NCBI RefSeq assembly: GCF_022844465.1
Contig: NZ_JALHLP010000003.1
Span: 248,001-312,000 of the forward strand
DNA: 64,000 nucleotides
From: Bradyrhizobium sp.
GTDB taxonomy: Bacteria > Pseudomonadota > Alphaproteobacteria > Rhizobiales > Xanthobacteraceae
Direction of reading: 5' to 3'
Positions 3,669 to 57,129 of this stretch are shown one piece after another. The position numbers and the translations under genes were made by a program. The number at the start of each line of letters is the position of its first letter. Positions within the stretch are counted from its first letter, which is position 1. The notes under the pieces are model-generated. The model made no database searches. It was not told the origin of the DNA and saw only the letters and a list, made by a program, of their open reading frames with translations.

Positions 3669-4967
3669 TCAACGCGCGCCGGCCTGTGAGACTTTATACA
3701 CCTGTCCCGCGACCGCCCGCACCTTGCGCGGCGAGGCCTGCCAGATCGCCACTGCCGACAGGATGCTGACGACGATGCCGATCGCAAACGCCACTGTATA
3801 ACTGCCGGAAAGATCGAACACCAGCCCGGTCACCCACGGACCGGCGGCGCCGCCGGCCAGCGCCGCCAGCATGATGGTGCCGAAAATGCTGCCATAATGT
3901 CTGCCCTGGAAGATCTCCAGCACCACCGCGCCCATGATCGAGGTCAGGCCATAGCCGAGCGCGCCCTGGGTGAAGATCATGAGGTAGACCAGCGGCAGCG
4001 CCGGCGCGAACTTCAACCCGATCAGCGCCGCAAAGCAGATCGCAAAGCCGGCGCAGCTCACCGCCCAGATCCATTCGCGCCCGATCCGGTCGGATAGATG
4101 CCCGAGCCAGATCTGGCCGGGAATGCCGAGCAGGCTGACGACGCCGAGCGACCACACCGCGACATTGGCGCTGAAGCCGATGTCGAGCAGGAACTTGGTC
4201 TGGTGCACCTGCACCGCGTACCAGACATAGAGGCCGCAGAAGTAGCCGAGCGCAATCCACCAGAACCGCGCGGTCGCCATCGCGCGGCGGAGCGTCCAGT
4301 CGGTTGCGGCCCAGACCGGATCGACAATGTTCGAGATTGGCGCGGCCGATGTCGCCGACGGCGCCGCGTCGCCGTCCGGCAGCAGGCCGAGATGCTCGGG
4401 CCGCATTCGCAGCAACAGGTTGATCGGCCCGAGCACGACGAAAACCAGAATGCCCATTGCGGTGCAGGCGGTGCGCCAGCCGGTCTGCTCGATCATGTGC
4501 TGCACCCACGGCAGCAGCGTCACCGAGCCGATGCCGACGCCGGCGAACGCCAGCCCCATCGCAAGCCCGCGGCGGCGGATGAACCAGTTCGGCAGGAACA
4601 GCGACTGGCCGGAATAGCCGAGGCAGACGCTGCCCGCGCCGACCAGCACGCCGATGGTGAGGTAAAGGTGCCATGGCTCGCTCGTCAGCGGCGCCAGCAG
4701 CAACCCGCCCCCCATCAACGCAACGCCGAGTTCCATCACCGCGCGCGGACCAAAGCGGTCCATCAGCCGGCCGATCAGCGGGCTGACGCCGGCGGACACC
4801 ACAAAGCCAAAGGAAAAGGCGCCCGCGGTGACGCCCCGCTCCCAGCCGAACTCGCCGATGATCGGCGGAAAGAACAGCGAGAACGCGGTCCGCGCATTGA
4901 CCCCGATCGCCATGGTCACGAACGTCACCGCAACGATCAGCCAGCCATAGAAGAAGGGAAGACGCAT
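3669..4967 (-). CDS. MFS transporter, monocarboxylate/oxalate-formate antiporter-like
   Basis: 432 residues with about twelve hydrophobic segments. It opens with MRLPFFYGWLIVAVTFVTMA, the FYGW...TM1 start typical of the OFA/monocarboxylate branch of the major facilitator superfamily. The loop between TM2 and TM3 reads GRLMDRFGPRAVME, matching the MFS G-x-L-x-D-R-x-G-x-R motif, and a central hydrophilic loop separates the two six-helix halves around residues 190-220. A related loop in the second half reads GHLSDRIGRE. Likely an inner-membrane importer or antiporter of a small organic acid; the substrate cannot be read from sequence. It is convergent with the TetR gene and stands alone as a transcription unit. 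Confidence 0.9.
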   Translation of the reverse strand: MRLPFFYGWLIVAVTFVTMAIGVNARTAFSLFFPPIIGEFGWERGVTAGAFSFGFVVSAGVSPLIGRLMDRFGPRAVMELGVALMGGGLLLAPLTSEPWHLYLTIGVLVGAGSVCLGYSGQSLFLPNWFIRRRGLAMGLAFAGVGIGSVTLLPWVQHMIEQTGWRTACTAMGILVFVVLGPINLLLRMRPEHLGLLPDGDAAPSATSAAPISNIVDPVWAATDWTLRRAMATARFWWIALGYFCGLYVWYAVQVHQTKFLLDIGFSANVAVWSLGVVSLLGIPGQIWLGHLSDRIGREWIWAVSCAGFAICFAALIGLKFAPALPLVYLMIFTQGALGYGLTSIMGAVVLEIFQGRHYGSIFGTIMLAALAGGAAGPWVTGLVFDLSGSYTVAFAIGIVVSILSAVAIWQASPRKVRAVAGQVYKVSQAGAR

Positions 4968-5169
4968 GGGGTTTGGCCGGGTGAGAGTTGGGTGGCGCGC
5001 TGTCGCGGCGACGCGGATACTGCGCCACCATCATGCACGGCCCGAACCTCGGCGCAATTGCGCGACCGCGATCCACGTCTGCCGCTGGATGTCCTGCCAC
5101 TTGCTTCTGGCCGAGGACCAGGAAGCAGGCTAACATGGCTTTTTCAGCAGTGTTTTCAGGAGGTGTAGA

Positions 5170-50570: not shown

Positions 50571-51722
50571 CTACGCGTAACCGCGCGCCACGCCGGAATC
50601 GTTCATCGATTCCATCTCGGTGCGCGGGCGCTGCCGCGTCAGCGCCAGGATCATGCCGACGCCATAGGCCAGCGAGATGATCGACGAGCCGCCATAGGAG
50701 ATGAAGGGCAGCGTCATGCCCTTGGCGGGGATCAGTTGCAGGTTGACCGCCATGTTGATCGCGGCCTGCATGCCGAACAGGATCGCAAGCCCCGAGGCGG
50801 CAAAGCGCGCGAACATGTCCTCGCTCGCATAGGCGCGCATCAGGGTCCGGATCACGACGAAGGCAAACAGCGCCACCAGCGCCAGGCACAGGATGATGCC
50901 GAACTCCTCGGCGGCCACCGCGAACACGAAGTCGGTATGGCTGTCGGGCAGGCTTCGCTTGGCGACGCCCTCGCCCGGCCCCAGCCCGAACCAGCCGCCG
51001 TTCCAGAACGCTTCCATGGCCATGTCGACCTGAAAGGTGTCGCCGGAGGACGGATTGAGAAAGCGCCTGATGCGGCCGGCGACGTGCGGGACCAGCAGGT
51101 AGGCGCCGAACAGCCCGGCCATCGCGAGACCGGCAAGGCCGGCCACCCAGACCATCCGCATGCCCGCGATGAAGAACAGCGCGCCCCACACCATCAGCAC
51201 CAGCACGGTCTGGCCGAAATCCGGCTCCATCACCAGGAGCGCCACCAGCATCAGCAAAAGCGCGATCGCCATCGAAGTCGCCGGCATTTCCGGCCGCCGG
51301 GTCGATTCCGCAAACAGCCACGCCGCCATCACGACGAAAGCGGGCTTGGCGGATTCGGAGGCCTGGATGTTGACGCCGAGCAGCGTGATCCAGCGCCGCG
51401 AGCCCTTTACTTCCGCGCCGAACACCAGCGTCGCCACGATCAGCAGGATCGAGACCACGAACACCAGCAGCGCGAGCCGGCGGATTTGCCTGGGCGACAG
51501 GAACGACACCCCGATCAGCACGATCAAGGACGGCAGCAGAAACAGCACGTGCCGGCTGAAGAAATGGAAGGGATCGAGTCCGATCCGGGTCGCCACCGGG
51601 GGGCTCGCCGCCAGCGACAGGATGACGCCGCCCAGCATCAAGGCCCCGATCGCCACCAGCAAAAGCTTGTCGATGGTCCACCACCAGTCCGAAAACGGGG
51701 TGGGTTGGTCACGGGCGAGCAT
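50571..51722 (-). CDS. ftsW: Septal peptidoglycan polymerase FtsW (SEDS family)
   Basis: 383 residues from the ATG at 51722 (an in-frame ATG at 51755 adds 11). About ten membrane helices. SEDS motifs are visible: KGSRRWITLLGVNIQASESA with the conserved KPAFVV that follows, VMEPDFGQTVLVLMVWGALF, and the C-terminal INLQLIPAKGMTLPFISYGG, given here in short form. FtsW polymerises glycan with FtsI. It would normally follow murD directly in a dcw cluster; here a 4-kb lower-GC cargo lies upstream, so its transcription may depend on read-through or on promoters inside that cargo. Confidence 0.96.
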   Translation of the reverse strand: MLARDQPTPFSDWWWTIDKLLLVAIGALMLGGVILSLAASPPVATRIGLDPFHFFSRHVLFLLPSLIVLIGVSFLSPRQIRRLALLVFVVSILLIVATLVFGAEVKGSRRWITLLGVNIQASESAKPAFVVMAAWLFAESTRRPEMPATSMAIALLLMLVALLVMEPDFGQTVLVLMVWGALFFIAGMRMVWVAGLAGLAMAGLFGAYLLVPHVAGRIRRFLNPSSGDTFQVDMAMEAFWNGGWFGLGPGEGVAKRSLPDSHTDFVFAVAAEEFGIILCLALVALFAFVVIRTLMRAYASEDMFARFAASGLAILFGMQAAINMAVNLQLIPAKGMTLPFISYGGSSIISLAYGVGMILALTRQRPRTEMESMNDSGVARGYA

Positions 51723-51873
51723 CGGCGTTTCCGGAATGGCGGAGGTAACGCCCATTGGTGGCCGAGGATGGTTTCCAAGGGGTTAATGGGGCCGGCTGTT
51801 CCTAGAAATGAACGCTATGACGCCTCGAAAAACGTCCTCATCCCCTGGCGGACTTACGATCTGTGGCGCGACA

Positions 51874-52749
51874 TCACACGGCTTCAAAATCGAACCGTCC
51901 GCGAACTGACAAGTAGTGATTTATGTCCACTACGTCCGAGCTGTTACCATCATGTAAAAGGTTCTCGGTGGGAGCAATATAGGCGTCTCCCGGTCGGAGC
52001 CGGACCCTGACGATCGGGTAATCCGGGAATGCAGACATAAAAGCCACACCAATGGAATTCACATCATGTCTGAATGGAACATTCTCCCTGTTCAAGATTG
52101 CCGCCATCCCCGCCGCCGTTTGGTTTAGAAAAATGAAATAGCGGTCGCTTGGACCAAGGTTGACCGACACGCGGTTAGACCCCGATTCCAGATCATCCAC
52201 CGCAAGTCGATCCCACATGTCAAAATGCATTCCAACACGTGCATCCTGGTCAACAGCTCTTGTCATTGTGATAAGGCCAGGATCATCCCGCCCGACCCTG
52301 GCCGAATGAACCTGACGGGTTAGAATGCCGGCATTCCGAATTATATCGAGAAGCAATCCTATGAGCGGATGCTTCAAGGTATCGCTATCATCAGCACGCT
52401 GAAATACATCGTCACGATTTTCAAAGAGCCTTATCATTTGCGGACTCAAAAGCCGCACTATCCCGACGCCGCGATGCGCCGGCGGCGCTGTCGCAGACCA
52501 AAGCGCCGACAACTCCTCTTGCGTTGCAGGATACCAGTCCGGCAGCGGAACGCGGGCATCGGCCACGTATCGCTGAGCCCCCGTGCCTATGGTGTCAGCT
52601 CGGCACGTTCCGCGACTTAGACATATCCTGCCACCCACGTCGAACAACGAATACCGTGGCGAATATAGAACAACCGCAGATGCCGATTTGGCACTTGATA
52701 AGATACTTATGGGATTTGCGTCCATGCTGTCGCGCTGCTTGTTGGACAT
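51874..52749 (-). CDS. 2-oxoglutarate/Fe(II) oxygenase-like protein of the RiPP cassette
   Basis: 291 residues, no membrane segment. The jelly-roll iron site can be read: GMHFDMWDRL with H175 and D177, then NRVSVNLGPSDRYFIFLNQT, then RPGDAYIAPTENLLHDGNSS with H266 as distal ligand, and an Arg (R283 or R285 in SVRGRF) placed to bind 2-oxoglutarate. These fit an oxygenase hydroxylating a peptide or small molecule, though I cannot name a subfamily. It is the last gene of the cassette, 72 bases after the methyltransferase gene. Base composition is about 45-50% GC in sampled lines, far below the dcw genes around. Start: ATG 52749 with GGAAA upstream; M9 is an alternative. Confidence 0.72.
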   Translation of the reverse strand: MSNKQRDSMDANPISILSSAKSASAVVLYSPRYSLFDVGGRICLSRGTCRADTIGTGAQRYVADARVPLPDWYPATQEELSALWSATAPPAHRGVGIVRLLSPQMIRLFENRDDVFQRADDSDTLKHPLIGLLLDIIRNAGILTRQVHSARVGRDDPGLITMTRAVDQDARVGMHFDMWDRLAVDDLESGSNRVSVNLGPSDRYFIFLNQTAAGMAAILNRENVPFRHDVNSIGVAFMSAFPDYPIVRVRLRPGDAYIAPTENLLHDGNSSDVVDINHYLSVRGRFDFEAV

Positions 52750-52821
52750 ATTCGCGCTTTCCAGAATTCAGCGGGGGACCCTTTCGAATATCCCCACGCT
52801 CATCTCAGATGAGCCAACAGG

Positions 52822-53616
52822 TTAGGCTGGCGGCACAAATAACGTCGAACCCGCGACCAGTCGATAAGGAACTGACGCAAGGTCGCAAAGCGCCACCCAA
52901 GTTACCAATTCGGGTTCGCCGAGCTTTGACGCCGATCGAATAAACGCGCACTTATGTTCGGCGGAGTGAAACTCGCACAAGTAATCGCGCAACGGCGATA
53001 AATCAGGTCCCGCGCCTTTTTCATAGATTATTGCGACATTTACATCAAACACGGCCGGCTGGAGCAGCATCATGGCGATCGAACGAACCACAGGTATCCG
53101 ACGTTTCACCAGACCAGTCGCCTCGTGGATCAGCATGCCATTGGCAGGATCGTAGCCAAGTTCAGCCAACATCGTATCGATAGAGGAAATAGCGGGAACG
53201 ACTCGCAAATTCCATCCGCGGGATCTTCCTTCCTTGAGGAGAGAGGCGGTAACGCTGTCAAAAATAACTGGATGCCCCGGCGTCAACCAAGCAATCGGAC
53301 TGTCCACTTCAATCAATTCGACGATCGCGTGAAAAACATCCGAGTAATTTTCTGTTCTGACTCGGCCATCCTGGTAGAGCGACCACAAGCTGATACACTT
53401 GTCGCGCAGATCCTGCGGTAAGCCTTCCAAATTTGACTCTTGGAGGTTCGTGCAGATGCGCTTGCACTTGGTCAGGATTTCGACCGTTTCGATGGTTAGC
53501 TGTTCGGGGAAAATGATCCCGGCGCCGACCAGATAGACTTCTCTCTTTATATGCTTGAGCTGACTCTTATCGTCATGAACGACGCTGGCTTGTGTCACGA
53601 TACCCCCCGAGTCCAT
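52822..53616 (-). CDS. Borosin-like alpha-N-methyltransferase (tetrapyrrole methylase fold)
   Basis: 264 residues, the length of a lone catalytic domain. The fold start is VYLVGAGIIFPEQLTIETVE with the SAM loop G31-A-G33. LYQDGRVRTENY (80-91) aligns with the borosin OphMA block YYDNGKSRLNTY, keeping the catalytic Tyr and Arg positions (Y81, R87, Y91; one flanking Tyr is W78). WLTPGHPVIFDSVTASLL (110-127) matches its YGHPGVF region, VVPAISSIDTMLAELGYDP (139-157) its PGVSAEDCLFADL region, and the end STLFVPP its STFYIPP. Borosin enzymes methylate backbone amides. Fungal ones are fused to their substrate; here no substrate is fused, so it would be a split type acting on another peptide. AGGA before the ATG at 53616. 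Lies 33 bases after the radical SAM gene. Confidence 0.85.
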   Translation of the reverse strand: MDSGGIVTQASVVHDDKSQLKHIKREVYLVGAGIIFPEQLTIETVEILTKCKRICTNLQESNLEGLPQDLRDKCISLWSLYQDGRVRTENYSDVFHAIVELIEVDSPIAWLTPGHPVIFDSVTASLLKEGRSRGWNLRVVPAISSIDTMLAELGYDPANGMLIHEATGLVKRRIPVVRSIAMMLLQPAVFDVNVAIIYEKGAGPDLSPLRDYLCEFHSAEHKCAFIRSASKLGEPELVTWVALCDLASVPYRLVAGSTLFVPPA

Positions 53617-53649
53617 ATTTCCTGTTCCGAGCCGCCCGAAACTGCCCGC

Positions 53650-54855
53650 TCACTTTCGGTTCGGGCCTCCAACATGCCCGCCTTGACCTATGCCGAGCTC
53701 TTTCTCGAGATCTTCCATGACGATGTCGGCAAAGGCTTGTATGTGCAGCCGACAGTATTGCGTTTCTGTTCCGGCAAAAGTTCCCAGTTCTGCAAGCTTA
53801 TTGCTGGGGTTGCCGCCACCGCAAACTGAAAAATATGCGCATGAATCCCCGCATCGCTGAATACCTGCCAAGATATCCGCATACGCCAACTTAAAGCCGG
53901 CGTTTGAAACGATCGCCGGCCAATCGTCGTTGTGGACGTTGCCCCACTCGAACGTCCCATAGCGACCATGTTCCGTGCCGAGCAACTCCGGTGAAAACGT
54001 CGTCACGTTGCCCGCGAAGTCGATGTTGATGATCGCGCCCGGCATATTGTCGGCGCGCATTACGCCGTTCCCGTGGGGCGCCATCAGATGTCCGCGCATC
54101 CCGTCAAACTCGCGAACGCGAATACCCGGATTCGCTTGGCGAAGCGTTGCAAGCCGTTGAAGAAAAGCGCGGAATGATCCTGCTGCCTCGGATATTGAAA
54201 GAGACGACAGATGGTTGATACCCTCGACTTCCTCAACATTGAAAGCTACCTGCGTCGCGCCTAAAGATTCGAAGAAGCGCCAAGTATCGTCGGGCGACCG
54301 CAACGCGTCTTCGGTCAAAACACCAATCACGGTAAAGGGAATTTCGTGCTGCCGTAATTTGGCGATTCCTCGCATGACGCGATCGTAGGTACCCCTTTTG
54401 GATCGATCCACCCGGTGCGCATCGTGAACTTCCTTTGGGCCATCGATGCTGACCCCAATCTGAACGGACCATTTCTTGAACAGCGCGCACCAGTCGTCGT
54501 TTATTAAAATGCCATTGGTCTGAAAATGATGACGGAACTGAATTGGCGCTGCGCCCGACTGCAATTCCTGAAATGCATCTTCGTAGAATGCGACAGGCGC
54601 TGTCATTGGCTCGCCAGCGTGCCAGACAACGGACAATCGCTCCTCGCTAATGCGTATTCCACGCACGAACCGAGCGATCGCCCGCACGGTGGATGCGTTC
54701 ATGCGCCTGTTTTCAGAACGGTGACTTAGGTAGCAATAAGAGCAATCAATGTTGCAAAAGGTCGTGGGCTGCAAAACCAAAAGACCAAGCGGCGCACATT
54801 TGACATCGTTGAGGAGAAATGGCTGCAAATCGCTAGGTGCCGAGGTTATGTTCAA
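53650..54855 (-). CDS. Radical SAM/SPASM peptide maturase, GrrM/OscB-like cyclophane former
   Basis: 401 residues. The radical SAM cluster is C34-NID-C38-SY-C41, with GEP at 81-83. The C-terminal SPASM-type region has C335, C339, C345 and C368 in GDSCAYFSVCGGGNPSNKLA followed by GTFAGTETQYCRL, the pattern of GrrM/OscB and XyeB enzymes that cross-link an aromatic residue to the third residue of a tripeptide motif. The 96-residue gene just upstream ends in nine Phe-x-Asn/Gln triplets, a fitting substrate. The start is a TTG at 54855, 26 bases after the precursor stop; no ATG or GTG is available nearby in frame, and the frame stays open upstream, so the exact start is uncertain. Confidence 0.92.
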   Translation of the reverse strand: MNITSAPSDLQPFLLNDVKCAPLGLLVLQPTTFCNIDCSYCYLSHRSENRRMNASTVRAIARFVRGIRISEERLSVVWHAGEPMTAPVAFYEDAFQELQSGAAPIQFRHHFQTNGILINDDWCALFKKWSVQIGVSIDGPKEVHDAHRVDRSKRGTYDRVMRGIAKLRQHEIPFTVIGVLTEDALRSPDDTWRFFESLGATQVAFNVEEVEGINHLSSLSISEAAGSFRAFLQRLATLRQANPGIRVREFDGMRGHLMAPHGNGVMRADNMPGAIINIDFAGNVTTFSPELLGTEHGRYGTFEWGNVHNDDWPAIVSNAGFKLAYADILAGIQRCGDSCAYFSVCGGGNPSNKLAELGTFAGTETQYCRLHIQAFADIVMEDLEKELGIGQGGHVGGPNRK

Positions 54856-54881
54856 GTTTAGCCCATAAGCCTCATGATCGA

Positions 54882-55172
54882 CTATTTGTTGTTGAAATTA
54901 TTGAAATTCGAAAATTGATTGAAGTTCGAAAACTGATTGAAGTTGGTAAACTGATTGAAGTTCTGGAAGGGCAGAGCCTGATTGAAAGCCACCGGTACAC
55001 CGCTCTGCGGGTCGGCGGAAGGATCGACCGGTCCATCGGGCTTGACAAGACTTCGAGCTGCAGAAAAGGACGCGCGAATAACATCAATGCGCAATCGAAT
55101 ATCCGGTTTTATCGACTTATCCGTTTCGATGATTGCGGATTGGGGCGGCGGCGGCGGGGGTATATCGACCAT
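54882..55172 (-). CDS. RiPP precursor with nine tandem Phe-x-Asn/Gln triplets
   Basis: 96 residues. The leader part (1-68) starts MVDIPPPPPPQSAIIETDKS and contains a helical basic segment (IRLRIDVIRASFSAARSL). From F69 to N95 there is a Phe exactly every third residue: FQN FNQ FTN FNQ FSN FNQ, then FSN FNN FNN and a final Lys. This is the aromatic-x-x pattern used by three-residue-cyclophane maturases, and the maturase gene follows at once. There is no signal peptide. GAGG lies about five bases before the ATG. The DNA behind the core is an 18-base tandem repeat (54909-54962). Expected product: a stiff rod of up to nine Phe-Asn/Gln cross-links, possibly N-methylated or hydroxylated by the next two enzymes. 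This is inference. Confidence 0.85.
   Translation of the reverse strand: MVDIPPPPPPQSAIIETDKSIKPDIRLRIDVIRASFSAARSLVKPDGPVDPSADPQSGVPVAFNQALPFQNFNQFTNFNQFSNFNQFSNFNNFNNK
54909..54962. repeat. 18-base tandem repeat in the precursor core
   Basis: Three units on the plus strand, CGAAAATTGATTGAAGTT, CGAAAACTGATTGAAGTT and GGTAAACTGATTGAAGTT, followed by a partial one. Each unit encodes two Phe triplets (six residues) of the precursor. Unit differences are mostly silent or change Ser/Thr, so the array probably grew by duplication under selection for the spacing. Confidence 0.85.
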
Positions 55173-55198
55173 AGCCTCGACCTCGTCATCCGTGATTT

Positions 55199-55227
55199 AC
55201 TATCGGCAACTCAAAAACAAGAACCAA
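55199..55227 (-). promoter_or_regulatory. Possible sigma70-type promoter of the RiPP cassette
   Basis: On the minus strand TTGGTT (complement of 55222-55227), 17 bases, then GATAGT (55199-55204), each four of six to the consensus. The start of transcription would be about 20 bases before the precursor ATG, in an A+T-rich stretch. Weak evidence by eye. Confidence 0.3.
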
Positions 55228-55243
55228 GTCAACGACACAGGTA

Positions 55244-55364
55244 CTATGCTAATGCCATAGGCCCTCCGTCAAGGGCCCGCCACAACAATGTAAGCAAGCT
55301 GGGGCCAGATTTCCTTCTGTGCCGTCGGAAGGATATCAATCCGTGGATCAAACGAGTCCGGCAT
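55244..55364 (-). pseudogene. N-terminal remnant of an AbiEii-like nucleotidyltransferase
   Basis: An ATG at 55364 overlaps the end of the 108-residue gene upstream and reads MPDSFDPRIDILPTAQKEIW, then PQLAYIVVAGP, then a stop at 55269. The opening FDPRxDILPxAQxxxWPxL is, from memory, the start of AbiEii/AbiGii-type nucleotidyltransferases, whose next block is YGGTALALRLGHR. A neighbouring frame here reads DGGPMALA before its own stop at 55244. So the gene seems frameshifted and cut off where the RiPP region begins. Nothing of the catalytic domain remains. Confidence 0.55.
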
Positions 55365-55674
55365 CGAACGACCTCGCCGGAGCTGCTTCGGGTATTCGGC
55401 GCCCGGTGGCGCGCATCAAGCGGCCCCGCCAAAACTCCCAGGATCGCTCGTCAATCCATCCCGGTTCGGCCTGAAGCATGGTCTCAACAAGTCGATCGGA
55501 GCCGAGCAATTGCTCCAGCCGCCGCACTTCGTCGAACCCCGCAAGGCACATCGCCTGGGCCAGAATTCTGGCGTCGGAACGCGGCTGCGAACCCACAGGC
55601 TCCCACCAGAAAAACCTCTTCTCCAGTTCAGAAAAAAGCCTCTTGGGGAGGCCGCGAGTCGATGAAGTTTCCAT
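55348..55674 (-). CDS. Small AbiE-unit partner-like protein, probable orphan
   Basis: 108 residues: LPKRLFSELEKRFFWWEP, then RSDARILAQAMCLAGFDEVR, then a Trp-rich end PGWIDERSWEFWRGRLM. The layout (FW near the start, RIL-x-x-x-M, SWEFWR at the end) resembles the small proteins encoded directly before AbiEii-like nucleotidyltransferases, and a decayed start of such a gene overlaps its 3' end. I cannot prove the family by eye. Without its partner it is probably a leftover antitoxin-like gene. It marks the murD-side edge of the foreign segment, 54 bases from the murD stop. Confidence 0.6.
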   Translation of the reverse strand: METSSTRGLPKRLFSELEKRFFWWEPVGSQPRSDARILAQAMCLAGFDEVRRLEQLLGSDRLVETMLQAEPGWIDERSWEFWRGRLMRATGRRIPEAAPARSFDAGLV

Positions 55675-55728
55675 AGTGAAATACTAGCACGGACGGCCAA
55701 ACCAAGCCAGCCGCGGCAGCCCAGCCCC

Positions 55729-57129
55729 TCACACCACCGGCTTCACGCCCGGCAGCGCCGTCACCAGATCGCGAAACTTCGTGCCGCGGATCTCGAAATT
55801 GCGGTACTGGTCGAACGAGGCGCAGGCGGGCGACAGCAGCACCACCGGGTCGGCAAGCCCGGAGGCTTCGGCGTCGCGCGCGGCGCCGGCGACCGCGACC
55901 TCGAGCGTCCCGGAAATCTCGTGCGGCACGCGCTCGCCCAGCGTTTCCGCGAATTCCGGCGCGGCCTCGCCGATCAGATAGGCTTTCCGGATGCGCGGGA
56001 AGTATTCGGCAAGGCCGGTGATGCCGCCGAGCTTCGGCTTGCCGCCGGCGATCCAGAAGATGTCGCCAAAGGACGACAGCGCGTGCGCGGCGGCGTCGGC
56101 GTTGGTGCCCTTGGAGTCGTTGACGAACAGCACGTTGCCGCGGCGGCCGACCTGTTCCATGCGGTGCGCCAGACCGGGAAAACTGCGCAGGCCGCTTTGC
56201 AACGTGTCGACCGGGATGCCCATCGCCAGCGCGCAGGCCGCCGCACAGGCCGCGTTCTGCGCATTGTGCAGGCCGCGCAGCGAACCGATGCCGCCCAGCC
56301 GGGCGATCTCGCCGCGCGCACCGCCGGAGGCCTGCACGATGGTTTCGCGCTCGACATAGACGCCGTCGGGCAGCGGGTTCTTCACGGAGATCCGCACCAC
56401 GCGCTTGCCGGCCTGATCGAGCCGGTCGGCGATGTTGCGGCACCAGATGTCGTCGACGCCGACGATCGCGGTGCCCTGCGGCTGCACGCCGGCGACCAGC
56501 CGCGCCTTGACCGCGGCATAGTTTTCCAGCGTGCCGTGGCGGTCGATATGGTCCTCGCTGACATTGAGCAGGATGCCGACGGACGGATCGAGCGAGGGGG
56601 TAAGGTCAATCTGGTAGGACGACATCTCGATCACATGCACCCGCCCGGTCCGCTGCGGCTGCAGCGAGAGCACGGCGGTGCCGATGTTGCCGCCCATCTG
56701 GGTGTCGTAGCCGGCGACCTTCATCAGGTGGGCGATCAAGGCTGTGGTGGTCGATTTGCCGTTGGTCCCGGTGATGGCGACGAACGGCGCGTCCGGCGCG
56801 TGGCGGCGGCGCTCGCGGCAGAACAGTTCGATGTCGCCGATCACCTCGACGCCGGCCTGGCGCGCCATCAGCACCGACCAGTGCGGCGCCGGATGGGTCA
56901 GCGGCGCGCCGGGCGTCAGGATCAGGGCCGAAAATTTCGCCCAGGAGACGGCGCGCAGGTCGGCGGTTTTGAAGCCGGCCTGTGCGGCCTTGGCGACATT
57001 GTCGGCCGAGTCGTCGCCGGCGATCACTTCCGCGCCGCCCGCCTTCAGGGCGTGACAGCTTGCAAGGCCGGATCCGCCGAGCCCGAACACCGCGACGGTC
57101 TTGCCGGCAAAGGAGGTGACGGGGATCAT
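55729..57129 (-). CDS. murD: UDP-N-acetylmuramoylalanine--D-glutamate ligase
   Basis: 466 residues. N-terminal [23 protein letters not shown] loop [19 protein letters not shown], central [20 protein letters not shown] (with MSSYQ here), and the C-terminal ligase domain with [20 protein letters not shown]. It adds D-Glu to UDP-MurNAc-L-Ala in the cytoplasm. The start ATG at 57129 follows a palindromic repeat (57140-57236) that separates it from mraY. Downstream, instead of ftsW, come the AbiE remnant and the RiPP cassette. Confidence 0.97.

Follow-up and report, generated by a model that had tools for sequence, protein, structure and literature searches.

A Bradyrhizobium gene cassette predicted to join triceptide-type cyclophane formation with borosin-like methylation

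The cassette and its four proteins

We analysed a 64,000-nucleotide stretch of Bradyrhizobium sp. DNA (contig NZ_JALHLP010000003.1, positions 248,001 to 312,000), referred to as the window, in which a cassette spanning 51874..55172 encodes a small repeat peptide, a radical S-adenosylmethionine (SAM) enzyme, a borosin-like methyltransferase and a putative Fe(II)/2-oxoglutarate-dependent oxygenase (Table 1). The four genes are all on the minus strand and are separated by gaps of 26, 33 and 72 bp. This arrangement had been described in an earlier interpretation made from the DNA letters without database searches (the sequence-only reading), and the open reading frame (ORF) coordinates confirm it. 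All four frames are open, with catalytic residues intact.

Table 1. Position of the cassette genes and of flanking features in the window (aa, amino acids)
Feature	Coordinates	Strand	Basis
Precursor peptide, 96 aa	54882..55172	minus	ORF call
GrrM/OscB-type radical SAM/SPASM peptide maturase, 401 aa, TTG start	53650..54855	minus	TIGR04261, CX3CX2C
Borosin-like N-methyltransferase, tetrapyrrole-methylase fold, 264 aa	52822..53616	minus	conserved Y81, R87, Y91, S144, Q186
MicC-like Fe(II)/2-oxoglutarate-dependent oxygenase, 291 aa	51874..52749	minus	H175-x-D177...H266
Low-GC insert between murD and ftsW	51756..55728	none	GC content; murD-ftsW spacing in relatives
murD	55729-57129		name assigned by eye
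ftsW	50571-51755		name assigned by eye

The precursor has a proline-rich start, MVDIPPPPPP...DIRLRIDVIRASFSAARS, followed by FNQALP and then by nine contiguous Phe-x-Asn/Gln triplets. The segment DIRLRIDVIRASFSAARS is likely to be a leader helix, the helix having been judged by eye. The triplets begin at residue 69 and read FQN FNQ FTN FNQ FSN FNQ FSN FNN FNN K to the C-terminus, and an additional FNQ occupies residues 63-65. When runs of aromatic-x-[NQDE] were counted in all six frames of the 64 kb, 760 consisted of a single triplet, 8 of two and one of nine; this last is the precursor run, the sole run in the window longer than two. The terminal nine triplets named in the sequence-only reading are thus present in the translation and unique in the window. 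A profile built from three precursors (A2) retrieved 30 relatives, with 9-11 contiguous triplets in 26 of them and shorter runs in P0184, P0194 and P0195 (5 triplets) and in P0190 (2 triplets). The segment FNQALPFQNFN occurs in the window precursor and in 26/30 relatives, being missing from P0182, P0190, P0194 and P0195; P0190 and P0192 appear by eye to be frame-shifted. Across the 284 triplets counted in the window precursor and its relatives, the third residue is Asn in 178, Asp in 56, Gln in 46 and Glu in 4, and F-x-N alternates with F-N-[Q/D/N/E] over most of the run in the long repeats. A match of the precursor profile to ribosomal protein L17 (E-value 0.0013) was taken as chance, as no single stretch passes.

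The GrrM/OscB family of radical SAM enzymes is named for glycine-rich substrates. The radical SAM protein of the cassette scores 394.7 bits against the NCBIfam model of this family, TIGR04261 (cut-off 310), and contains the CX3CX2C motif as CNIDCSYC at residues 34-41, with further cysteines at 335, 339, 345 and 368 in the C-terminal SPASM region. These results uphold its first assignment as a GrrM/OscB-like radical SAM/SPASM enzyme; an AmcB identity was rejected (330.4 bits, under the cut-off of 425). The gene is the only one above the TIGR04261 cut-off in the window's genome, and the same cut-off is passed in 6/6 related loci tested. The precursor adjoins the maturase gene across the 26 bp gap, the placing of an aromatic-x-Asn precursor that is expected of a triceptide pathway. 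OscB is reported to form i/i+2 bonds between Phe C4 and Asn C-beta, and between Trp C7 and Asn or Asp C-beta (PMC11002830). The F-x-N triplets fit this Phe-to-Asn cross-link.

For the methyltransferase, the best PDB matches are borosin backbone N-methyltransferases, both by sequence and by fold (an AlphaFold2 (AF2) model compared with solved structures). In a gapless alignment the borosin catalytic Tyr/Arg/Tyr (OphMA Y66, R72 and Y76) pairs with Y81, R87 and Y91; of 102 aligned sequences, 100 keep these three residues and 2 are gapped at these positions. An ordinary tetrapyrrole methylase identity was rejected, borosin enzymes ranking higher in sequence and in fold; the enzyme may have evolved from a YabN-like one (52 bits against the NCBIfam YabN model, cut-off 525). 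Backbone N-methylation is the reaction predicted for this enzyme.

The oxygenase contains an HxD...H facial triad within the Fe/2-oxoglutarate oxygenase fold. The iron site claimed for the fourth gene proved invariant, H175-x-D177...H266 being kept in 65/65 aligned rows (64 database matches plus the window protein, which also occurs among the matches as P0102). Its likeness to MicC (PDB 9vkm) rests on sequence (E-value 9.4e-21, the best stretch covering residues 161-271 around the iron site). The entry 9vkm is not among the listed Foldseek/VIA rows, which cover structures up to April 2026 and so have no bearing on the relation. The pathway and substrate of MicC were not found in the open-access papers searched. 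We predict that the cassette oxygenase acts by hydroxylation.

Recurrence and coupling of the genes

The methyltransferase clade is represented by four further loci in the genome collection (L002, L003, L004 and L005). In all five contexts, the window included, a GrrM/OscB-type enzyme is adjacent or fused to the methyltransferase and an aromatic-x-Asn protein is encoded nearby; the radical SAM enzymes of the four further loci all exceed the TIGR04261 cut-off. The two enzymes are fused in 2/5 contexts and the oxygenase is found in 4/5. L002 matches the cassette in all four genes and in their order. L003 (Rhizomicrobium) encodes the precursor, a 650-aa fusion of radical SAM enzyme and methyltransferase, and the oxygenase, and L005 (Elusimicrobia) encodes a 646-aa fusion and a divergent oxygenase together with a peptide that contains W/F-N-N and F-D/E-K triplets. 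The block thus extends to other phyla, and the recurrence of the four-gene order in L002, and of the block with the enzyme fusion in L003 and L005, shows that the arrangement is more than chance. The pairing of the methyltransferase with GrrM is real.

In L004 (Bradyrhizobium), a 629-aa protein with eleven W/F-x-N triplets (L004:4952-6841) is followed by another ORF and then by the methyltransferase and the radical SAM enzyme. The start of this protein looks signal-like by eye, and it carries TPR-like matches as well as a proline-rich stretch; the repeat here appears to form part of a large and perhaps exported protein instead of a small peptide.

The methyltransferase and the oxygenase also travel together in the protein database, where 9 pairs were found on contigs of equal length and matching source, compared with a chance expectation of 0.08 on average and 2 at most (2000 trials with jittered lengths; the test drew on 29/100 methyltransferase and 51/63 oxygenase entries). 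Two of these pairs also have a precursor match, and one is the contig of L002. The equal-length combinations P0017/P0180 (2,925) and P0020/P0122 (6,786) were dropped because their database sources differ. Distance matrices of the two proteins correlate with r 0.85 across 11 loci, a value reached in 0/5000 permutations. All nine paired methyltransferases have 70-80% identity to the window enzyme over the aligned part, and no entry at or below 58% is paired in this way; the oxygenase therefore seems tied to one branch of the methyltransferase family. Below 60% identity, the methyltransferase contexts covered are those of L004 and L005.

The clade is rare in the genus. At an E-value of 1e-40 it was found in 2/265 genomes of the genus, 1/297 of the order and 1/198 of the phylum of L005's genome, and at 1e-20 in 4/385 genomes of the class (3 of them with a distant match) and 10/391 of the family (3 close, 7 distant); the counts for class, family, order and genus include the window's genome. 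The distant homologues (7 family and 3 class genomes, 25-28% identity) show no radical SAM match within the 1-1.5 kb covered to either side, which indicates that the borosin-like superfamily as a whole has no fixed link with cyclophanes. Methyltransferase homologues in one Bradyrhizobium plasmid and in Haloarcula have other neighbours.

Relatives of the oxygenase were found in 3/385 genomes of the class, the window's genome included. In two genomes of this class they lie beside cyclophane-type radical SAM enzymes that score under the XyeB, YhhB, FxsB and GrrM cut-offs. In Nostoc a relative lies beside grrM with no methyltransferase match and a W-x-N/D peptide upstream, and in Streptomyces ADI95-16 another lies beside grrM, again with no methyltransferase match. 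Among four of the five plasmid records (the fifth, another Methylocystis, was left out), no radical SAM gene was found within 6 kb of the oxygenase relative in two, Streptomyces NBC_01454 and Methylocystis parvus OBBP. Overall, the family appears to consist of tailoring enzymes for cyclophane pathways, and some members occur outside these. The genome comparison called for in the sequence-only reading speaks for it, with qualifications: all 5/5 contexts of the methyltransferase clade join GrrM with an aromatic-x-Asn protein, and distant methyltransferases and some oxygenases are found in other surroundings.

Two loci of oxygenase relatives have features of their own. In Streptomyces sp. ADI95-16 (L027:3995-12095) grrM and the MicC-like oxygenase are flanked by genes for a lanthionine synthetase C and a lantibiotic dehydratase, perhaps another hybrid cluster for a ribosomally synthesised and post-translationally modified peptide (RiPP). 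In L055, GGNFVSAPAM occurs three times in a small ORF (4776-5084, minus strand) that is located upstream of a divergent MicC-like oxygenase and a cyclophane-type radical SAM enzyme; a reported cross-link motif of MscB is Phe-x-Ser (PMC11002830).

A predicted pathway, its alternatives and its known relatives

We estimate a probability of roughly three in four that the cassette encodes a hybrid 'triceptide-borosin' pathway, the predicted product being a multiply cross-linked, N-methylated and oxidised ribosomal peptide. The leader helix (DIRERINxIRVSFAKAR in relatives) would bring the enzymes to the repeat, where, in many triplets, the radical SAM enzyme would bond the Phe ring to C-beta of the third residue. 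The methyltransferase, which is fused to the cyclase in two lineages, would act on this core too, methylating its backbone amides or, less probably, the side-chain amides of Asn/Gln, and the oxygenase would serve as an O2-dependent finishing enzyme, likely by hydroxylation. The order of enzyme action and the sites of modification, like the chemistry of the methyltransferase and oxygenase, are those we infer. The original proposal that one peptide is shared by cyclase, methyltransferase and oxygenase draws support from the fusions and from the co-inheritance. A more ambitious version, in which the product defines a new RiPP class, a poly-cyclophane rod with 9-11 back-to-back staples, amides N-methylated by a methyltransferase fused to the cyclase in some lineages, and an oxygen finish, is possible rather than probable.

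The repeat itself offers a hint as to the division of labour. An F-N-[D/Q] register is present in the window, L002 and L003, where the oxygenase is also present, and absent from L004, which has W/F-x-N only and no oxygenase. On the strength of this single negative case, the pattern suggests that each of the two registers is read by a different enzyme. The second triplet of L005, which has the divergent oxygenase, is a different one (F-D/E-K), and the link between register and oxygenase is a tentative one.

Several observations count against the hybrid pathway. The AF2 model of the methyltransferase is of middling quality (predicted local distance difference test (pLDDT) 80, predicted template modelling score (pTM) 0.58). 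Pro113 replaces the SAM-contacting Tyr (OphMA Y98) before GHP, in 97/102 sequences, and Trp78 stands at the position of OphMA Tyr63. This SAM-contacting Tyr is typical of borosin methyltransferases rather than strictly defining; its putative counterparts are KchMA Y105, equated by spacing, and SonM Y93, and nearly all activity is lost in KchMA Y105A (PMC11395268). We call the enzyme borosin-like and not a borosin because of this replacement; the original borosin-like assignment stands. KchMA Y73F, the equivalent of Y81, retains most activity (PMC11395268), and conservation of Y81 by itself therefore lends weak support. The precursor showed no borosin-binding domain, with no match to Pfam and, for its profile, none to SonA in the PDB; class 4 borosins also occur without this domain (PMC11395268). 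L004 has no oxygenase match across 16.7 kb. Finally, Gln and Glu as third residues (F-N-Q, F-N-E) are outside the OscB cross-links reported in the available part of PMC11002830, and cross-linking of every triplet therefore need not hold.

Some of the same features bear on where the methyl groups would be placed. The methyltransferase could target side-chain amides, giving N-methyl-Asn or -Gln, with the remainder of the pathway unchanged: the core is mostly Asn, plus Gln and Asp, Pro113 and Trp78 are within the active-site block and substrate geometry may differ, and the backbone NH in strained three-residue rings may be poorly reachable. However, the nearest solved enzymes in sequence and fold are backbone N-methyltransferases and the Y/R/Y catalytic set is intact, making this alternative unlikely. 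It is less probable again that the radical SAM enzyme makes a product other than three-residue cyclophanes, such as inter-triplet cross-links or ether links. The triplets are back to back, and every second one contains Gln, Asp or an additional Asn, unlike the glycine-rich substrates of the family name; nevertheless, the score is well over the GrrM/OscB cut-off, and F-x-N equals a reported OscB cross-link motif. Slightly lower still we place the reading in which the precursor is modified by the cyclase alone and the methyltransferase or oxygenase acts on another target, a small molecule or another protein. It is favoured by eleven distant methyltransferase loci (L008-L020 minus L012 and L013; 25-28% identity where tblastn finds a homologue, none in L009) without a radical SAM match in the 1-1.5 kb each side, and by the 2/4 oxygenase plasmid loci described above, but the fusions in two lineages and the co-inheritance of methyltransferase and oxygenase are hard to explain without a common substrate. 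A decayed or passenger insert without a product, for which the rarity of the clade in the genus and the variable murD-ftsW gap might speak, is very improbable given the four open frames, the intact catalytic residues and the 9-11 triplets in 26/30 precursor relatives.

The hybrid pathway can be compared with several known systems. The cassette shares with triceptides (OscB/GrrM, TIGR04261) the radical SAM family, the aromatic-x-Asn motif and a maturase gene beside a small precursor gene, and differs from them in adding the borosin-like methyltransferase and the oxygenase, and in a core whose nine Phe-x-[NDQE] triplets (9-11 in 26/30 relatives) follow one another without spacers. In split borosins (SonM/SonA type IV; class 4) the methyltransferase and precursor are likewise separate, and the catalytic Tyr/Arg/Tyr and the fold are shared. 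In contrast, the cassette enzyme has Pro for the SAM-contacting Tyr and is partnered by a cyclophane-type radical SAM enzyme, to which it is sometimes fused; its core is Phe/Asn, whereas the cores of the methyltransferases tested in one study are described as primarily hydrophobic (PMC11285071). The tvg pathway of Halomonas likewise combines a repeat precursor (TvgA), a radical SAM enzyme (TvgB) and an Fe/2-oxoglutarate enzyme (TvgC). However, TvgB forms cyclopropyl groups on Val instead of cyclophanes, TvgC is assigned to a different family (IPR018724), and no methyltransferase is named for tvg in the available part of the source (PMC11002830).

Among the open-access matches listed, no pathway joining a cyclophane radical SAM enzyme with borosin-type methylation was found; most subscription journals, including two borosin surveys, are outside this coverage, so an earlier description may exist. 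The component enzymes are of known kinds, and the combination and the fused enzyme look new. Peptides that unite side-chain staples and amide N-methylation are built by hand by medicinal chemists to obtain rigid, protease-proof and membrane-crossing scaffolds. If the hybrid pathway is true, the cassette, or the fused cyclase-methyltransferase, would be a compact test bed for both modifications on a programmable repeat. It would also raise the questions of whether a borosin-type active site tolerates a cross-linked substrate, which of the enzymes comes first and how the repeat marks triplets for each enzyme.

Genomic setting

The cassette is inserted within a cell-division cluster, with murD on one side and ftsW on the other (neighbours named by eye). 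Its guanine-plus-cytosine (GC) content of 52.9% is well below that of murD (69.2%), ftsW (65.8%) and the 64-kb window (64.8%), so that the block looks imported, and horizontal acquisition of the four genes is likely. A promoter and terminator scan gave a site count not above that of shuffles. No protease or exporter gene was seen in the adjoining division cluster, where genes were read by eye, which implies that processing would use genes elsewhere or that the product stays large.

The murD-ftsW gap varies across 12 same-genus relatives (L035-L046), measuring ~0.13-0.6 kb in 9 and ~1.3 kb in L040; L035 and L036 have no murD inside 1.5 kb of ftsW. Within the division cluster, this gap appears to be prone to insertions. 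Adjoining murD, a 108-aa ORF without a convincing family match (55348-55674, minus strand) overlaps a 31-codon open stretch (55269-55364, minus strand) that by eye resembles the start of a truncated nucleotidyltransferase gene, and the two are possibly the remnant of an older insert.

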